Source of the DNA: Rhodospirillales bacterium RIFCSPLOWO2_02_FULL_58_16
GTDB taxonomy: Bacteria > Pseudomonadota > Alphaproteobacteria > Rhodospirillales > 2-02-FULL-58-16
DNA length: 39,877 nt
Direction: 5' to 3'
Assembly (NCBI GenBank): GCA_001830425.1
Contig: MIAA01000001.1
Coordinates: 105,045 to 144,921 of the forward strand
Notes under the pieces: generated by a model
Told to the model about the DNA's origin: nothing
The model's database searches: none
The model's input: only the letters and a program-made list of their open reading frames with translations
Shown here: in pieces, positions 21,560 through 29,795 of the stretch
Numbering within the stretch: the first letter of the stretch is position 1
Layout: the number at the start of each line of letters is the position of its first letter
Made by a program: the position numbers and the translations under genes

Positions 21560-21584
21560 AAAATCAAGGCCGCGCCTTGATTTT
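21560..21584. promoter_or_regulatory. Perfect 11-bp inverted repeat between fliX and flgE, upstream of the sigma-54 site
   Basis: The arms AAAATCAAGGC (21560-21570) and GCCTTGATTTT (21574-21584) are perfectly complementary around CGC. The site lies between two divergent genes and ends five bases before the sigma-54 box. It therefore lies upstream of both transcription starts and is not an ordinary gene-end terminator. It looks like an operator or activator site, or a divergent-transcription insulator. Whether FlbD binds here is unknown. Confidence 0.6.
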
Positions 21585-21588
21585 TGTG

Positions 21589-21605
21589 TTGGCACCCATC
21601 TTGCT
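21589..21605 (+). promoter_or_regulatory. Sigma-54 promoter of flgE
   Basis: TTGGCACCCATCTTGCT matches the -24/-12 consensus, with GG at 21591-21592 and GC at 21603-21604 separated by exactly ten bases. It lies 60 bases before the flgE start, leaving a leader of about 48 bases with a good CAGGAG ribosome site. Hook genes are sigma-54-dependent in Caulobacter and many relatives. Confidence 0.85.
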
Positions 21606-21664
21606 TGAAAGAGAGCAGGAAATTTTATGCATATCTGTTTGAGCAAGGGTCCAGGAGCGCCGAC

Positions 21665-23599
21665 ATGACGGTTTTCAATGCTTTCGTCATCCCCACTCTC
21701 GGCATGTCGAGCCAGAGTCACGCCCTCAACACCATCGGCAACAACATCGCCAACGTCAACACGGGCGGCTTCAAGCGCACCGACACCAGATTTTCAACCG
21801 TGCTCAGCGATACCTATTTTCAGCAGTCGGACATCGGCGGAACATTACCCAAGGACTACAATCGGATAAGCGTTCAAGGCCTGCTGACGACCAGCACCAG
21901 TAATTTCGATGTCGCCATCAACGGCGACGGATACTTTGCCCTTAATTCCAAGCAGGACGGTTCCGGCGAAGCTTTGTATACCCGCGACGGCGGGTTCGGC
22001 ATGGTCACCGGCGCCGACACCAACGTAACCGCCGACGACGGCAGCACGATCACCGTCAAGGAAGGCTATCTGGTGGACAAGAATAATTATTACGTTCAGG
22101 GGTATGCGTGGGACAGCGCAGCCGGCGACTTTTCCACCACCCTTTCATCGATGAGAGTGGATCAGTACTCGTTCGCCAACACCGGCATCGCCACCACCAC
22201 CGCCAAGCTGGCGATAAACCTGCCGTCAAATAACGCGCTTGTCAGCGATCACGCCGCCTCCGTCGCCGGCGTCCTGGCCGGCGGAACCGCCCCTGCCGGG
22301 CTGGAGGTATATAACATCGACGTTATCGATTCCGCTTTCGCTCATCAGTCGGTGTCCCTTTATTTTTCCAAGAACGCAACCAACACATGGGATATGTCTT
22401 ATGTGACCACCCGAACTCCGGTGGCCCAGGTCGATACGGTGACCTTGGGCGGCGCCATTGAGGCCGGGGACACCTATACCGTCACCATCAACGGCACGCC
22501 TTATCAACAGATACTCGTCGGCGGCGAAACCCTCAGCACTGTCCGCGACGCTCTGGTGACGCAAATAAACGCCGACGCCACGCTTAAGGTGACGGCGGCG
22601 CCTTCCGGGGCCGACGCCCTTACCCTGACTTCCGATGTCGCCGGCGACGCCGTAACCACCCTGGCGGTGGCGGTGCACGGCGGCGTCAGCGTAGCCCAGT
22701 CCGACTCGATCACGATCGGGGGAACGTTTGAACTCGGCGACGTCTATACGGCGACGGTTAACGGCAACCTTTATTCCTACACGTCGGCGGGACCGGACGC
22801 TTCCAACGCCGACGCGGCGACGGGATTGGCCGCCCTGATCAACGCCGATCCCGCCGTTGCGGCCGCCGCCGTCGGCAACGTCATCACCATTACCGCATCC
22901 ACCGCCGGCACGGCCTATGCCCTGACCGCCGTCGGCGCCTCGGGCGGAGTCGACGCCACCCAGACGGCGGCTCCCGCCGTCGTCACGGCGAATTACACCG
23001 CCCTGGCCGACAACACGGCCACCGTGGCGACGACGACCGCCAACGTGCTGAGCACCGGCACCTCGGCGATAACACCGATAACGTTCACGACCATGGGGAC
23101 TTTAACGTCACCCTCTTCGATCGCCCTGGCGATGACGTTCGCCGGCGGAAGCACGGGCGCGGTCACTCTTGATACCAGCGAATTCGTCCAGTACGCCGGC
23201 GATCTCATGCCCTTCAATTACACCAGAAACGGTTATGCCGCCGCGCTTATGAATGATTTTGAATTCACCACCACGGGCGAAATCGTCGGCAATTTTCATG
23301 ATTCATCCTACCGGTCGATCTATAAAATCCCCCTCGCCCAGTTCACCAATCCGGACGCCATGGACAGGATTAACGGCAACGTATACGCCGAGACCGCCGA
23401 GTCCGGAACCGCCAGACTTACCAATCCGGGAACCGACGGGTATGCCTCCCTGTCGCCGTTCACGCATGAAATTTCCAATGTCGATCTGGCCGACGAATTC
23501 ACCAAGATGATCATGACCCAGACCGCCTACAACGCCTCGGCCAACGTCTTCAAGACCGTTGACGAGATGACGAAAGAGGCAAGCAGCCTCAAGAGATAG
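21665..23599 (+). CDS. flgE: Flagellar hook protein FlgE, enlarged by tandem beta-rich repeats
   Basis: 644 residues. The N-terminal rod/hook motif is SSQSHALNTIGNNIANVNT (15-33), followed by GGFKRTDTRF. The C-terminus has the axial-protein signature NVDLADEFTKMIMTQTAYNA and ends SANVFKTVDEMTKEASSLKR. Both termini form the D0 coiled-coil core. The central part is expanded: two tandem units of about 88 residues (257-346 and 347-434), each starting DxxTxGG, with GDxYTxTxNG in the middle and ending GGVxxxQ. These would be surface-exposed. ATG 21665 has CAGGAG seven bases upstream. FlgF/FlgG-type rod proteins are shorter, so hook protein is the best reading. It is expressed from its own sigma-54 promoter. 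Confidence 0.88.
   Translation: MTVFNAFVIPTLGMSSQSHALNTIGNNIANVNTGGFKRTDTRFSTVLSDTYFQQSDIGGTLPKDYNRISVQGLLTTSTSNFDVAINGDGYFALNSKQDGSGEALYTRDGGFGMVTGADTNVTADDGSTITVKEGYLVDKNNYYVQGYAWDSAAGDFSTTLSSMRVDQYSFANTGIATTTAKLAINLPSNNALVSDHAASVAGVLAGGTAPAGLEVYNIDVIDSAFAHQSVSLYFSKNATNTWDMSYVTTRTPVAQVDTVTLGGAIEAGDTYTVTINGTPYQQILVGGETLSTVRDALVTQINADATLKVTAAPSGADALTLTSDVAGDAVTTLAVAVHGGVSVAQSDSITIGGTFELGDVYTATVNGNLYSYTSAGPDASNADAATGLAALINADPAVAAAAVGNVITITASTAGTAYALTAVGASGGVDATQTAAPAVVTANYTALADNTATVATTTANVLSTGTSAITPITFTTMGTLTSPSSIALAMTFAGGSTGAVTLDTSEFVQYAGDLMPFNYTRNGYAAALMNDFEFTTTGEIVGNFHDSSYRSIYKIPLAQFTNPDAMDRINGNVYAETAESGTARLTNPGTDGYASLSPFTHEISNVDLADEFTKMIMTQTAYNASANVFKTVDEMTKEASSLKR
22433..22966 (+). repeat. 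Two tandem repeat units inside flgE
   Basis: Unit 1 (22433-22702) and unit 2 (22703-22966) encode similar domains. Shared positions include DTVTLGG/DSITIGG, GDTYTVTINGTPY/GDVYTATVNGNLY, ALVTQINAD/GLAALINAD, and LTLTSDVAGD/ITITASTAGT. The pattern resembles repeats seen in large bacterial adhesins and haemolysin-like proteins. Divergence at the DNA level shows the duplication is old. Confidence 0.75.
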
Positions 23600-25761: not shown

Positions 25762-28227
25762 ATGTCCGCCCTAACCCTCTCGCTCCTGACCGCTCAAAGC
25801 GGTCTGACGGTCAATCAGGCGGCGATGGACGCCACGGCTGAAAACATCGCCAACGCCAACGCGGCGGATTATACGCGCAAAGCCGTAACCATGGAGCAAC
25901 GGGTGGTCGCCGGCGTCGGCGCCGGCGTCCAGCTTGGGGAACTCAAGCGGCAGATAGATGAAGGACTGCTGAAAAGCATGCGCCTGGAAATGGCGGACTT
26001 AAGCAAGCTTGATGTCCAGACCGATTTCTACGAGCGCATCCAGTACACGTTCGGAAGCCCCGAAGACAACACATCAATCGCCCACATCGCTAACCAGTTC
26101 AACGGCGCCCTGGAAGCAATGGCGTTGTCGCCCGACAGCGTTCTGCAACAAAGCGAGGTGCTGCGGTGGGCCAATGAACTGGAGGTCAAGTCGCAGGACA
26201 TGACCTCGACTATCCAGGAGTTGCGCATGCAGGCGGACAACGATATCGCCACCGCCGTGGGTGAAATCAACACCTTGATTCTCAGCATCCGCGACTACAA
26301 CGATCTGCTGATCAGCAGCAAGGCCGTCAACCGCGAGGTCAGCGACATCATGGACCAGCGCGACAAAGCGATGAACAGGCTCTCGGAACTGATTGACAGC
26401 CGGTACTATTTTCGCGGCGACGGCGACATGGTGGTCTTCACCGCTTCCGGTCGGACCCTGGTCGATAACATTCCCGCCACCCTGGTCCATACTGCGGTCG
26501 GCACCTCAAGTCCGACAACGACCCATGCCGACGGCTCTATCAGCGGCATTTATATAGGCGAAAAAATCGCCGCCAACGATATCACCGAAGATATCGGCTC
26601 CGGCGCCCTGAGCGGACTGATCACCCTGCGCGACGACGTACTTGCCGATCTGCAAAGTCAGCTTGACGAAATGATGGGCGAACTCAGGGATTTGACCAAT
26701 CAAATTCATAACCGGGGCGCTGCCTTCCCCGGAGCGCAAACGATGACGGGAACACGGAATATAATCAATTCCAGCGCCCAGACGATAAAGCTCGATCCTA
26801 CCGGCAGCGTGGATGACGTGGTAATCGCCGCTTTCGACATCTCCGGCGACCAGCAGGCAAAAACGACGCTGAACGCCATCATGCAGGACGCCACCATCGG
26901 CGTAGCGGTGGCTTATTCGAGCCGAGGCGCAAGCGGGGACTGGACCATCGACCGGGTGGCCGCCAAGATGCAGGCCTGGCTTCGCGATTCGACCAACGCC
27001 ACCGCTCCCGGACCGGGGTTGGCGGCGGCGACGGTTACCGTGAACAGCGCCGGGCACCTCCAGATCGACCTTAATGACTCCGATAACTATCTTGCCTTCC
27101 GCGATCAGGCGGGCACGGCCGCCGGCGCCGCCCTTGAAGATGCCGAAATCGCCTTCAGCGCCGGCGGCGCTGATTACACAGGCGTTACCTTCGCCAATGT
27201 TGTCGGCGTCAACAACGACACCATGACGTTCGCCGCCGGAACTGATCTTTCTTACCTGACGGCGGGGGCCACCTTCACCATCAACGGCGCCGCCAATGCG
27301 GCGAACAACGGCTCGTTCACCGTGGTCAGCGTGGCCGCCAACGTCATTACCGTGACCTCGGACGCCCTGGTCGCCGAAGCGGTAAACGTCGCCCTGACGA
27401 CGGGCGCGACCGAGACGGTCAGGGGTTTTTCCAATTTCTTCGGCCTCAATGACTTTTTCGTCGACGGCCTGCCCGACAATATTTGGGAAACGGACGTGAT
27501 GACGTCCACGTTTTCCGGCACCGCCGCGACTCTTTCCATCAGGGACGACAACGGCTTGATGGGGGCTATTTCCATAGCCGCCACGGCCGGCCTGAGCACC
27601 ATCAGGGATCAGATCAACAACGCCAATATGGGCGTGACCGCTACGCTGATCCCCGACGGATCGGGAATCAGGCTAAGACTCACCCATGACACCGGCAAAA
27701 GCATGTATGTCACCCAGGCGACGGGCAATACGCTGCTCACCGACATCGGGATGCATCTTGCCGATGTGCGCACCGCCGGCACGTTTGAAGTGCGAAGCGA
27801 CATTAAGGTAAATCCGGGCTTCATAGCGCACGGCGCCGTGCAGTGGGACGCCGACCTCGGCCCCGCCGGCGAGTATTTTACCAGCGTCGGCGATGATACT
27901 ATTGTCGAGGCCCTGGCCAAAAAGCTCAACGAGAACAATCAGTTCGACGCAGCCGGCGGCCTCGCCGGCGTCAACCACACCATCGCCGAGTATGCGGAAG
28001 CCATCCTTGAACGCAATTCAAGCCAGGCTCACGACAACAAGACAAGCCTGGATTTCCAGCAATCGCTCACGGAAAGCCTGCAAGGCAAATCGGACTCCTA
28101 CAGGGGGGTAAACCTTGACGAAGAACTGGCAAACCTGCTTGTTTATGAGCAAGCGTATTCCGCCGCCGCCCGCATAATCAGCGTCATCCAGAGCATGTTT
28201 GATGCTCTCGAACAGACAATCGGATAA
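25762..28227 (+). CDS. flgK: Hook-filament junction protein FlgK (HAP1), unusually long
   Basis: 821 residues, against the roughly 450-650 usual for FlgK. The N-terminal axial segment LTAQSGLTVNQAAMDATAEN with IANANAADYTRK, and the C-terminal GVNLDEELANLLVYEQAYSA then ARIISVIQSMFDALEQTIG, define the family. A central helical region (about 90-235) matches FlgK D1. The extra length lies in the middle. It includes one 75-80-residue beta-rich unit (474-552) with GATFTINGAANAANNGSFTV, of the same family as two units in FlgL. It joins hook to filament. GAGGAAAG precedes ATG 25762 by six bases. The gene is in one operon with flgN and flgL. Confidence 0.95.
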   Translation: MSALTLSLLTAQSGLTVNQAAMDATAENIANANAADYTRKAVTMEQRVVAGVGAGVQLGELKRQIDEGLLKSMRLEMADLSKLDVQTDFYERIQYTFGSPEDNTSIAHIANQFNGALEAMALSPDSVLQQSEVLRWANELEVKSQDMTSTIQELRMQADNDIATAVGEINTLILSIRDYNDLLISSKAVNREVSDIMDQRDKAMNRLSELIDSRYYFRGDGDMVVFTASGRTLVDNIPATLVHTAVGTSSPTTTHADGSISGIYIGEKIAANDITEDIGSGALSGLITLRDDVLADLQSQLDEMMGELRDLTNQIHNRGAAFPGAQTMTGTRNIINSSAQTIKLDPTGSVDDVVIAAFDISGDQQAKTTLNAIMQDATIGVAVAYSSRGASGDWTIDRVAAKMQAWLRDSTNATAPGPGLAAATVTVNSAGHLQIDLNDSDNYLAFRDQAGTAAGAALEDAEIAFSAGGADYTGVTFANVVGVNNDTMTFAAGTDLSYLTAGATFTINGAANAANNGSFTVVSVAANVITVTSDALVAEAVNVALTTGATETVRGFSNFFGLNDFFVDGLPDNIWETDVMTSTFSGTAATLSIRDDNGLMGAISIAATAGLSTIRDQINNANMGVTATLIPDGSGIRLRLTHDTGKSMYVTQATGNTLLTDIGMHLADVRTAGTFEVRSDIKVNPGFIAHGAVQWDADLGPAGEYFTSVGDDTIVEALAKKLNENNQFDAAGGLAGVNHTIAEYAEAILERNSSQAHDNKTSLDFQQSLTESLQGKSDSYRGVNLDEELANLLVYEQAYSAAARIISVIQSMFDALEQTIG
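27181..27417 (+). repeat. Beta-repeat unit in flgK shared with flgL
   Basis: Residues 474-552 of FlgK carry the pattern (T)FAAGTD...AGATFTINGAANAANNGSFTV followed by VITV and a LVAEAV end. The two FlgL units show the same order: FAAG or FANVG, PVGxxITIxGxAxNNGTxTV, ITxxx and an EA-rich end. The shared pattern is visible at protein level. DNA identity is low. Confidence 0.65.
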
Positions 28228-28238
28228 GGAGAGCGCCA

Positions 28239-29795
28239 ATGTCCACCCGCGTCGCCAGTTTTTCCGCCAATCAACAACTGATTAATCTGTTGATGCGCGG
28301 CCAGCAACGCATGCAGGAGACACAGGTGCAGATAACCAGCGAAAAGGTCTCGCAGGACTATGCGGGGATCGCTCCGGTCTCGGAGCGCCTGGTCAACATC
28401 GAAAACTCAACTACGCTGTTAAAACAGTTCAAGGCCAACAACGATATGCTGGACCTGGATATGAACACCGTCGAAGTGACCCTGGATGGAATCCAGAAGA
28501 CAGTCGCCGACTTTCGCGATCTTCTCAATAATTTCCAGAGCGGTGATATGAGCGATGAAACGCAGGTGAAGAATATTCAGGAAGCCGCGTTCCGCGCCAT
28601 GACCGACATGCAAACCAATCTGAACATCGATGTCGGCGGGAAATATCTGTTCTCGGGCGCCCGCATTTCCTCCATTCCCGTTGATATGGAGTTGACATCT
28701 CTCGGCGACTTCCAGACCAGGTGGACGGGCAACGCCAGCAACGGAACCCTTTACCCTGTTACCAGGGGTCATAACGTCCACCCTAAATTAACCGCCACTG
28801 CGGGCACGCCGTGGGACGGCGTGAACGTAGACACCACGGCGCGCGATTACGGCGTCTTGTCATTCGCCGCCGGAACCAGCATCACCGCCGCCACCGCCGG
28901 AAAGTTCGCCAACATTCCCGTCGGCGGCACAATCACCATCGCCGGAACCGCAGGCAATAACGGAACCTATACCGTTTCCGCCAACAACGGCACAACGATC
29001 ACCACCGTTGAGGCTACGGCTCTTGAGGCCGGCGTCGCCGCCGCCACCGTCGCCATGGCCACCTACCCGACATCCGGTTTCGGAACCTTGGCGTTCGCCA
29101 ATGTCGGCGTTGCCGACACCATTACCGCGTCGAGGACAGGTTCCTTCGGCAACGTTCCCGTGGGTTCGAAAATTACCATCACCGGTTCCGCCTCCAATAA
29201 CGGGACTTTTACCGTCGCCGCCAACACGGGGACCGTCATTACCCTTTCCTCAACGGATTCCCTTGTGAACGAAGCCGCCACGGCGGCGCCGACCATCACC
29301 ACCGACATCTCGTATTATGACGGCGATTCACAATCGACCCTCCATAAGGTGACTGAGGGACGGGAATTTTCGATGGACCTTAATGCCATTGATCCCGCCT
29401 TCGAGAAGGCGATCCGGGCCATGAGCATCATCGCCCAGGGTGTTTTCGGAACCGCCGGCGGTCTCGACAACAATCATAAGCGGGTGGATGATGCGCAGTA
29501 TCTGCTGACGGCGGCCCTGGAACCCACCTCGCCCGGCGCCCCGCCCTTTGAAACGGAGCAAACCAGCAGCATTGAAAAAGTTCAGATGGACATCGGCTTT
29601 AATCGGTTATTGCTTGATCGAACCAATAAAAGTCACGACCAACTGATCGGCTTTTTTGACCAGAGGGTCGCCGACATCGAGAACATCAATCCGCTGGACG
29701 CCATCACGCGCCTGCTTGATGATCAAAAAGCGATGGAAGCCTCGTATCAAGCCATGGCAACGGTGCGCCGGCTGTCATTGAGCAATTACCTTTAG
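28239..29795 (+). CDS. flgL: Hook-filament junction protein FlgL (HAP3)
   Basis: 518 residues, against about 300-350 for typical FlgL. The flagellin-like N-terminal helix (STRVASFSANQQLINLLMRG, then QQRMQETQVQITSEKVSQDY) and the C-terminal helix (DAITRLLDDQKAMEASYQAM, then RRLSLSNYL) form the filament-type core. DVGGKYLFSGARISSIPVDM is the conserved FlgL/flagellin turn. The excess length is two tandem beta-rich units at 205-281 and 282-357. AAGGAG stands seven bases before ATG 28239. It follows flgK by 11 bases and ends the operon. An atypical flagellin is a weaker alternative; the position after flgK favours FlgL. Confidence 0.9.
   Translation: MSTRVASFSANQQLINLLMRGQQRMQETQVQITSEKVSQDYAGIAPVSERLVNIENSTTLLKQFKANNDMLDLDMNTVEVTLDGIQKTVADFRDLLNNFQSGDMSDETQVKNIQEAAFRAMTDMQTNLNIDVGGKYLFSGARISSIPVDMELTSLGDFQTRWTGNASNGTLYPVTRGHNVHPKLTATAGTPWDGVNVDTTARDYGVLSFAAGTSITAATAGKFANIPVGGTITIAGTAGNNGTYTVSANNGTTITTVEATALEAGVAAATVAMATYPTSGFGTLAFANVGVADTITASRTGSFGNVPVGSKITITGSASNNGTFTVAANTGTVITLSSTDSLVNEAATAAPTITTDISYYDGDSQSTLHKVTEGREFSMDLNAIDPAFEKAIRAMSIIAQGVFGTAGGLDNNHKRVDDAQYLLTAALEPTSPGAPPFETEQTSSIEKVQMDIGFNRLLLDRTNKSHDQLIGFFDQRVADIENINPLDAITRLLDDQKAMEASYQAMATVRRLSLSNYL
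28851..29309 (+). repeat. Two tandem beta-repeat units inside flgL
   Basis: Unit 1 (28851-29081) and unit 2 (29082-29309) encode matching blocks: GKFANIPVGGTITIAGTAGN/GSFGNVPVGSKITITGSASN, then NGTYTVSANNGTTIT/NGTFTVAANTGTVIT. A third copy is in FlgK. The domains would decorate the outside of the hook-filament junction. Confidence 0.75.

Follow-up and report, generated by a model that had tools for sequence, protein, structure and literature searches.

Outer domains of the flagellar axial proteins are already known to vary, and the route by which such a domain is gained is seldom visible. According to excerpts of the published accounts, additional domains are known in FlgK and FlgE (PMC5691160), the D2 domain of Campylobacter FlgL is bulky (PMC12221982), and FlgL D2 and FlgK D2 are alike in some species (PMC6155364); the last excerpt also presents a FlgL assembly model in which D2 is exposed outside the ring and is proposed to reinforce the junction, including by like-with-like contact with FlgK D2. 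Here we analysed a 39,877-nucleotide stretch of contig MIAA01000001.1 (positions 105,045 to 144,921, forward strand; hereafter the window) from Rhodospirillales bacterium RIFCSPLOWO2_02_FULL_58_16, in which the adjoining genes flgK and flgL together encode three copies of one repeat, the NNGT unit. We read this unit as a shared outer module that is routine in FlgL, was gained in FlgK in restricted lineages and takes part in module exchange among axial genes, and we put the probability of this reading as a whole at about two in three. The features on which it rests are as follows.

25762..28224, plus strand: flgK (HAP1), 821 residues with one inserted unit; assigned by NCBIfam TIGR02492, Pfam FlgK_D1 and a fold match
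27190..27399, plus strand: NNGT unit of FlgK, residues 477-546, at site B, flanked by ...IAFSAGG and TETVRGFSNFFGLNDFF
28239..29792, plus strand: flgL (HAP3), 518 residues, its outer region consisting of two units; adjoins flgK downstream, core fold match
28845..29057, plus strand: NNGT unit 1 of FlgL, residues 203-273; counterpart in the nearest relative (G003) at 55%
29076..29303, plus strand: NNGT unit 2 of FlgL, residues 280-355; G003 counterpart at 72%

A sequence-only reading of this DNA had described one 20-residue pattern common to the FlgK unit and both FlgL units. Both FlgL units fit that pattern literally, but in the FlgK unit the sequence is TAGATFTINGAANAANNGSFTV, which carries an insertion of two residues and departs from the pattern at several positions; what held up was the homology of the three units rather than the literal pattern. 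Smith-Waterman comparisons against 2000 shuffles each gave z = 16.1 for the two FlgL units, 8.4 for the FlgK unit and FlgL unit 2, and 5.5 for the FlgK unit and FlgL unit 1, with 0 of 2000 shuffles reaching the observed score. With a 30-row profile from which the window units had been left out, the two FlgL units reached 72.0 and 61.3 bits. The FlgK unit, far more diverged than either, reached 30.5 bits (E 7e-8), whereas none of the 903 shuffled or reversed decoys scored above 7.7 bits. Short segments of like composition, here low-complexity beta segments rich in T, N, G and A, might be expected to resemble one another by chance. However, composition-preserving shuffles never reached the observed scores and conservation is position-specific across 33 units; the shuffles and leave-out profiles together rule out chance similarity, to which we assign a negligible probability. 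We are thus confident, from these sequence comparisons, that the three units are copies of one homologous module. DNA identity among them is low, and they are therefore old, diverged copies.

In the FlgK alignment, the unit is cleanly inserted, with a conserved FlgK stretch on either side. The spacing of the anchors around this point, site B, was measured in 54 of 80 FlgKs, the other 26 being left out because an anchor was not found. Fifty-one of the 54 have 20-35 residues between the anchors; the exceptions are the window FlgK with 105, occupied by the NNGT unit, and L049 and L055 with 129 and 135, occupied by a second, IN-like module described below. Eleven Magnetospirillum-type FlgKs have their NNGT unit elsewhere, at site A, which lies about 130 residues from site B, and all six other sampled FlgKs of family f1 (L036, L037, L038, L040, L049, L054) are without one. 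In a FlgK tree restricted to columns with at least 70% of rows occupied, the window sequence is sister to an insert-free FlgK with support 100; on this tree it takes three changes to account for presence of the NNGT unit, and two for the pair of IN inserts. The FlgK of the window lineage has probably gained an NNGT unit at site B, and its presence there is lineage-specific. No direct repeats flank the insert, the only pair found being a chance-like one of 16 nucleotides inside it. As a separate observation, the FlgK of the family relative G004 (L040, 2109-4190, minus strand) diverges in the alignment near its C-terminal end in a frameshift-like manner.

We next consider how usual the unit is among relatives. 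FlgL, FlgK and FlgE were collected from a 41-genome set that included the window's own genome, and an 80-locus set was formed from the best 80 of 99 loci, picked by likeness to the window FlgL, a choice that favours FlgLs with units. The sampled genera are mostly Rhodospirillales (Magnetospirillum, Paramagnetospirillum, Magnetovibrio, Terasakiella, Pararhodospirillum, Haematospirillum and metagenome bins), and several of the collected open reading frames (ORFs) are cut at contig ends. Among these relatives, 92 distinct FlgL ORFs are at least 300 residues long; 89 of them have one to eight units, the unit-free ones being the short L060-L062 (320-414 residues). Median FlgL length rises with unit number, from 516 residues at two units to 716 at four and 1013 at eight. 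In the 41-genome set FlgL was matched in 29 genomes, 25 of them with units, three without (again L060-L062) and one represented by a fragment lacking the region. One unit is present in 12 of 80 distinct FlgK ORFs, in 11 of these at a site other than the window's, and in 6 of 38 FlgE ORFs, two further FlgEs (L158 and L160) lying outside that count. In genome-wide searches the unit was present in 79 of 120 genomes from the order at E <= 1e-5, and in 4 of 398 sampled from the phylum at E <= 1e-6, the window's own genome being among those four. The view of the sequence-only reading, that the unit is not normally found in either protein, is nearly true of FlgK and wrong for FlgL: NNGT units are the usual content of the FlgL outer region in most of the order. 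The longest FlgL seen, a 1288-residue protein (L122, 6082-9945), has about seven IN-like and three NNGT modules.

Both window genes are intact open frames. FlgK scores 270.2 bits with TIGR02492 (cut-off 170.75) and 130 bits with Pfam FlgK_D1 (cut-off 28.6), and its model superimposes on Salmonella FlgK (2d4y) with Z 33.1 over 372 residues at a root-mean-square deviation (rmsd) of 2.8, the known FlgK fold. FlgL lies below the curated cut-offs, with 47.1 against 127.2 bits for TIGR02550, 108.6 against 217 for the best model, the 'flagellin' NF006489, and 13.4 against 23 for Pfam Flagellin_C. The core of its model matches solved FlgL/HAP3 chains (9go6_U, Z 19.4; 2d4x, Z 17.3, rmsd 2.4, 192 residues) and also flagellins (Z 14-15). 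We name 28239..29792 FlgL because of this structure and its place directly after flgK.

The NNGT unit is predicted to be a small beta-rich module of about 75 residues with five strands. The predicted strands lie at residues 480-484, 487-490, 504-507, 517-525 and 528-532 in the FlgK unit, at 208-210, 214-216, 231-234, 242-249 and 253-258 in FlgL unit 1, and at 284-289, 292-297, 311-314, 322-329 and 333-338 in FlgL unit 2, in matching order, with similar spacing and with a long hairpin at the end. This layout is compatible with one fold, although it falls short of proof. Weighing against the reading, the units are the low-confidence parts of both models (predicted local distance difference test, pLDDT, about 50-74): the FlgK model has a mean pLDDT of 87.1 and a predicted template modelling score of 0.80 with only about 51-71 in the insert, and the FlgL model has a mean of 71.6 with about 55-74 in the units and lower values in the links. 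Fold identity accordingly rests on sequence and strand order.

The same data bear on whether the units might simply be standard D2/D3 beta-domains of hook-associated proteins (HAPs) that have diverged past recognition. Xanthomonas and Burkholderia FlgL and FlgK already have a similar D2 beta-sandwich, as far as the excerpt of PMC6155364 goes, Burkholderia FlgK D3 has the fold of its own D2 in the excerpt of PMC5691160, and one of the 33 units weakly matches Pfam FlgK_2nd (E 0.012). Yet the unit was added to an otherwise complete FlgK whose relatives do without it, a search of solved structures with the 33-unit profile brings up neither FlgL nor FlgK at E <= 1, and about five strands are predicted, in models whose confidence in the units is too low for a verdict on fold, where the excerpt of PMC6155364 reports eight for D2. 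We regard this explanation as very unlikely.

The NNGT unit is not the only module in these proteins. A second type, which resembles Flagellin_IN/FliD D2 and a phage-sheath domain, is here called IN-like. Two further features of the window are the FlgE that carries it and a stretch of FlgK of Flagellin_IN type.

21584..23596, plus strand: flgE (hook), with two tandem IN-like modules at ORF residues 282-450 (module profile); TIGR03506 202 bits
27562..27669, plus strand: Flagellin_IN-type stretch of FlgK, PF07196 28.6 bits, over the cut-off, within a constitutive FliD-like domain

In the window FlgE, residues 253-364, which overlap the first IN-like module, match PHROG 165 (tail sheath) at E 8e-9. 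The model of the constitutive FlgK domain, residues about 571-669 (27472-27768), aligns to FliD D2-D3 with Z 12.6 and to phage tail sheath with Z 7.8. IN-like modules occur in 26 of 58 FlgE, 12 of 105 FlgL and 2 of 96 FlgK ORFs in redundant sets of relatives. Each position appears open to either type: in the FlgLs L067 and L069 an IN-type module stands in place of the unit 1 of others, and in the four FlgE ORFs with both anchors, NNGT and IN modules fall in one interval, bounded by a W-containing strand and the TQFxGD region, the IN module starting 12 residues past the W in the window FlgE and three others. FlgE, FlgK and FlgL thus appear to have exchanged the two module types between their outer parts, a reading that rests mainly on the way the two kinds alternate at fixed points.

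Besides FlgL, FlgK and some FlgE proteins, the unit occurs outside flagella in RTX-repeat or giant surface-type proteins and in one tail protein of phage type. In scans of the window proteins and 33 units, it was covered by no Pfam family. PHROG 1236, annotated as 'head protein', is matched by 29 of the 33 units at E <= 0.1 (best 2.6e-7), with only positions 55-114 of its 177 covered, and by the whole FlgL at E 7.2e-7. One unit each lies in a phage-type tail protein of a more distant genome of the phylum (L157, 1871-4741, minus strand; PHROG 469, 738 bits) and in a surface-type protein with RTX repeats from G003, the nearest relative (L155, 87-1652); two giant ORFs with the unit were scanned, and both have RTX repeats, one also laminin-G and Ig-type domains. 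The suggested likeness to phage structural proteins is supported by the PHROG 1236 matches and the copy in the tail protein. Among solved structures the 33-unit profile gave weak matches to 6mnt (E 0.019), which we take to be the coat insertion domain of P22-like phages (its record says only 'putative coat protein'), and to 8skg (E 0.16). Searches of phages by tblastn returned nothing at E 0.01 for the FlgL unit pair and nothing for one other FlgL unit, and one weak match (E 0.002) for the L157 unit; Foldseek against viral models returned nothing at E <= 0.001, the best being 0.0016. Matches of FlgL to hepatocyte growth factor receptor (E 0.005-0.06) were put aside as a weak beta-domain likeness.

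Where, then, did the FlgK copy come from? The sequence-only reading had suggested domain shuffling within this operon. Shuffling among axial proteins is supported, in that one family occurs in FlgL, FlgK and the FlgE of relatives and two modules alternate; an origin within this operon is not, since the nearest units lie in other genomes. Among 252 units, the closest to the FlgK unit is the second FlgL unit of G002, of a family shared with the window (44%), followed by other FlgL units and Magnetospirillum FlgK units, and none of its 15 best non-self matches is a unit of the window's own FlgL. Recent copying of the neighbouring FlgL units into FlgK is not supported, on these grounds and on the low DNA similarity.

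A donor outside the axial genes is conceivable, namely an RTX or giant surface protein or a prophage tail gene with the module, as such genes exist (L155 of G003, the giant ORFs L156, L159, L162 and L163, and the tail protein L157). The 15 best non-self matches are nevertheless all FlgL or FlgK units, in a set of 252 that is mostly FlgL, and the unit tree gives no decision; we consider an outside origin unlikely.

Three results count against a separate gain in the window lineage: six of the 15 best non-self matches are Magnetospirillum-type FlgK units; the 98-unit tree is poorly resolved, with 47 of 95 inner branches open, and too weak to name a donor; and in an approximately unbiased (AU) test a tree that joins every FlgK unit in a single clade is not rejected (p 0.67). 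Because of the AU result and the poor unit tree, a single old acquisition common to the Magnetospirillum-type FlgKs, later relocated or lost in most lineages, keeps some weight, and the window and Magnetospirillum FlgK units also share a longer loop before NNG. The insertion points differ, however, with unambiguous flanks, and none of the six other sampled family-f1 FlgKs carries the unit, which makes this history quite unlikely in our view. We retain a gain at site B in the window lineage as the more probable course.

Taken together, these observations suggest the following model. NNGT units would form an exposed, D2-type outer region of FlgL in one to eight copies across most of the order, and the IN-like module would be used likewise. 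Axial proteins would own a few acceptor points in their outer loops, any of which either module may fill: in FlgL before the YYxGD motif, in FlgE between the W-containing strand and the TQFxGD region, and in FlgK at sites A, B and C. In the window lineage, one NNGT unit would have entered FlgK at site B. To judge from homologous HAP structures, the units probably face outward and would thicken the hook-filament junction, where they may stiffen it or contact neighbouring subunits. A common outer layer at this junction is plausible from the D2-region position, and the units, lying in the D2 region of FlgL with one more in FlgK, would extend it.

The sequence-only reading had pointed to the genome's flagellins as a place for further copies, and none was found. 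Searched with a profile that contains the window units, and whose E-values are therefore not independent (the window-free profile described above being the independent test), the own genome holds no further unit at E <= 1, so its single flagellin found, a 329-residue frame, is without one; the decoration would therefore sit on the junction and not on the filament. The same genome gave no FliD_N match at E <= 0.1 despite the presence of flagellin, FlgK and FlgL, and its filament cap protein may be absent or diverged.

More speculatively, and with rather less than even confidence, the outer layers of hook and junction in this order might be viewed as an exchangeable kit of two phage-like beta-modules at fixed FlgE, FlgK and FlgL points, in which FlgL copy number tunes the bulk of the junction and the filament stays bare. 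With site B empty in 51 of the 54 measured FlgKs and otherwise holding three inserts of two kinds, and with FlgL forming a series from one to eight units, the gain of outer domains becomes testable. Whether matching modules of neighbouring rings touch can be tested in culturable relatives of the genus Magnetospirillum.

We found no published account of the NNGT module in the titles and abstract starts of the open-licence PMC literature, a scope that does not prove absence. Among described systems, the PHROG 1236 protein and phage tail proteins share the same module profile, the difference being that the units here lie in flagellar genes and not in a phage head gene. The coat insertion domain of P22-like phages (6mnt, 8skg) shows a weak likeness, in sequence profile only, that is not significant alone. 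The second module type of axial proteins apparently belongs with the Flagellin_IN/FliD D2 domain, which is distinct from the NNGT unit. The known variable D2/D3 domains, such as Xanthomonas FlgL D2, Burkholderia FlgK D2/D3 and Campylobacter FlgE D3/D4, are likewise optional outer beta-domains in a helical core. Unlike them, the NNGT unit has no sequence match to solved FlgL or FlgK chains, and it is a module, about 75 residues long and with a sequence signature peculiar to it, that is repeated in one to eight copies and common to FlgL, FlgK and FlgE.

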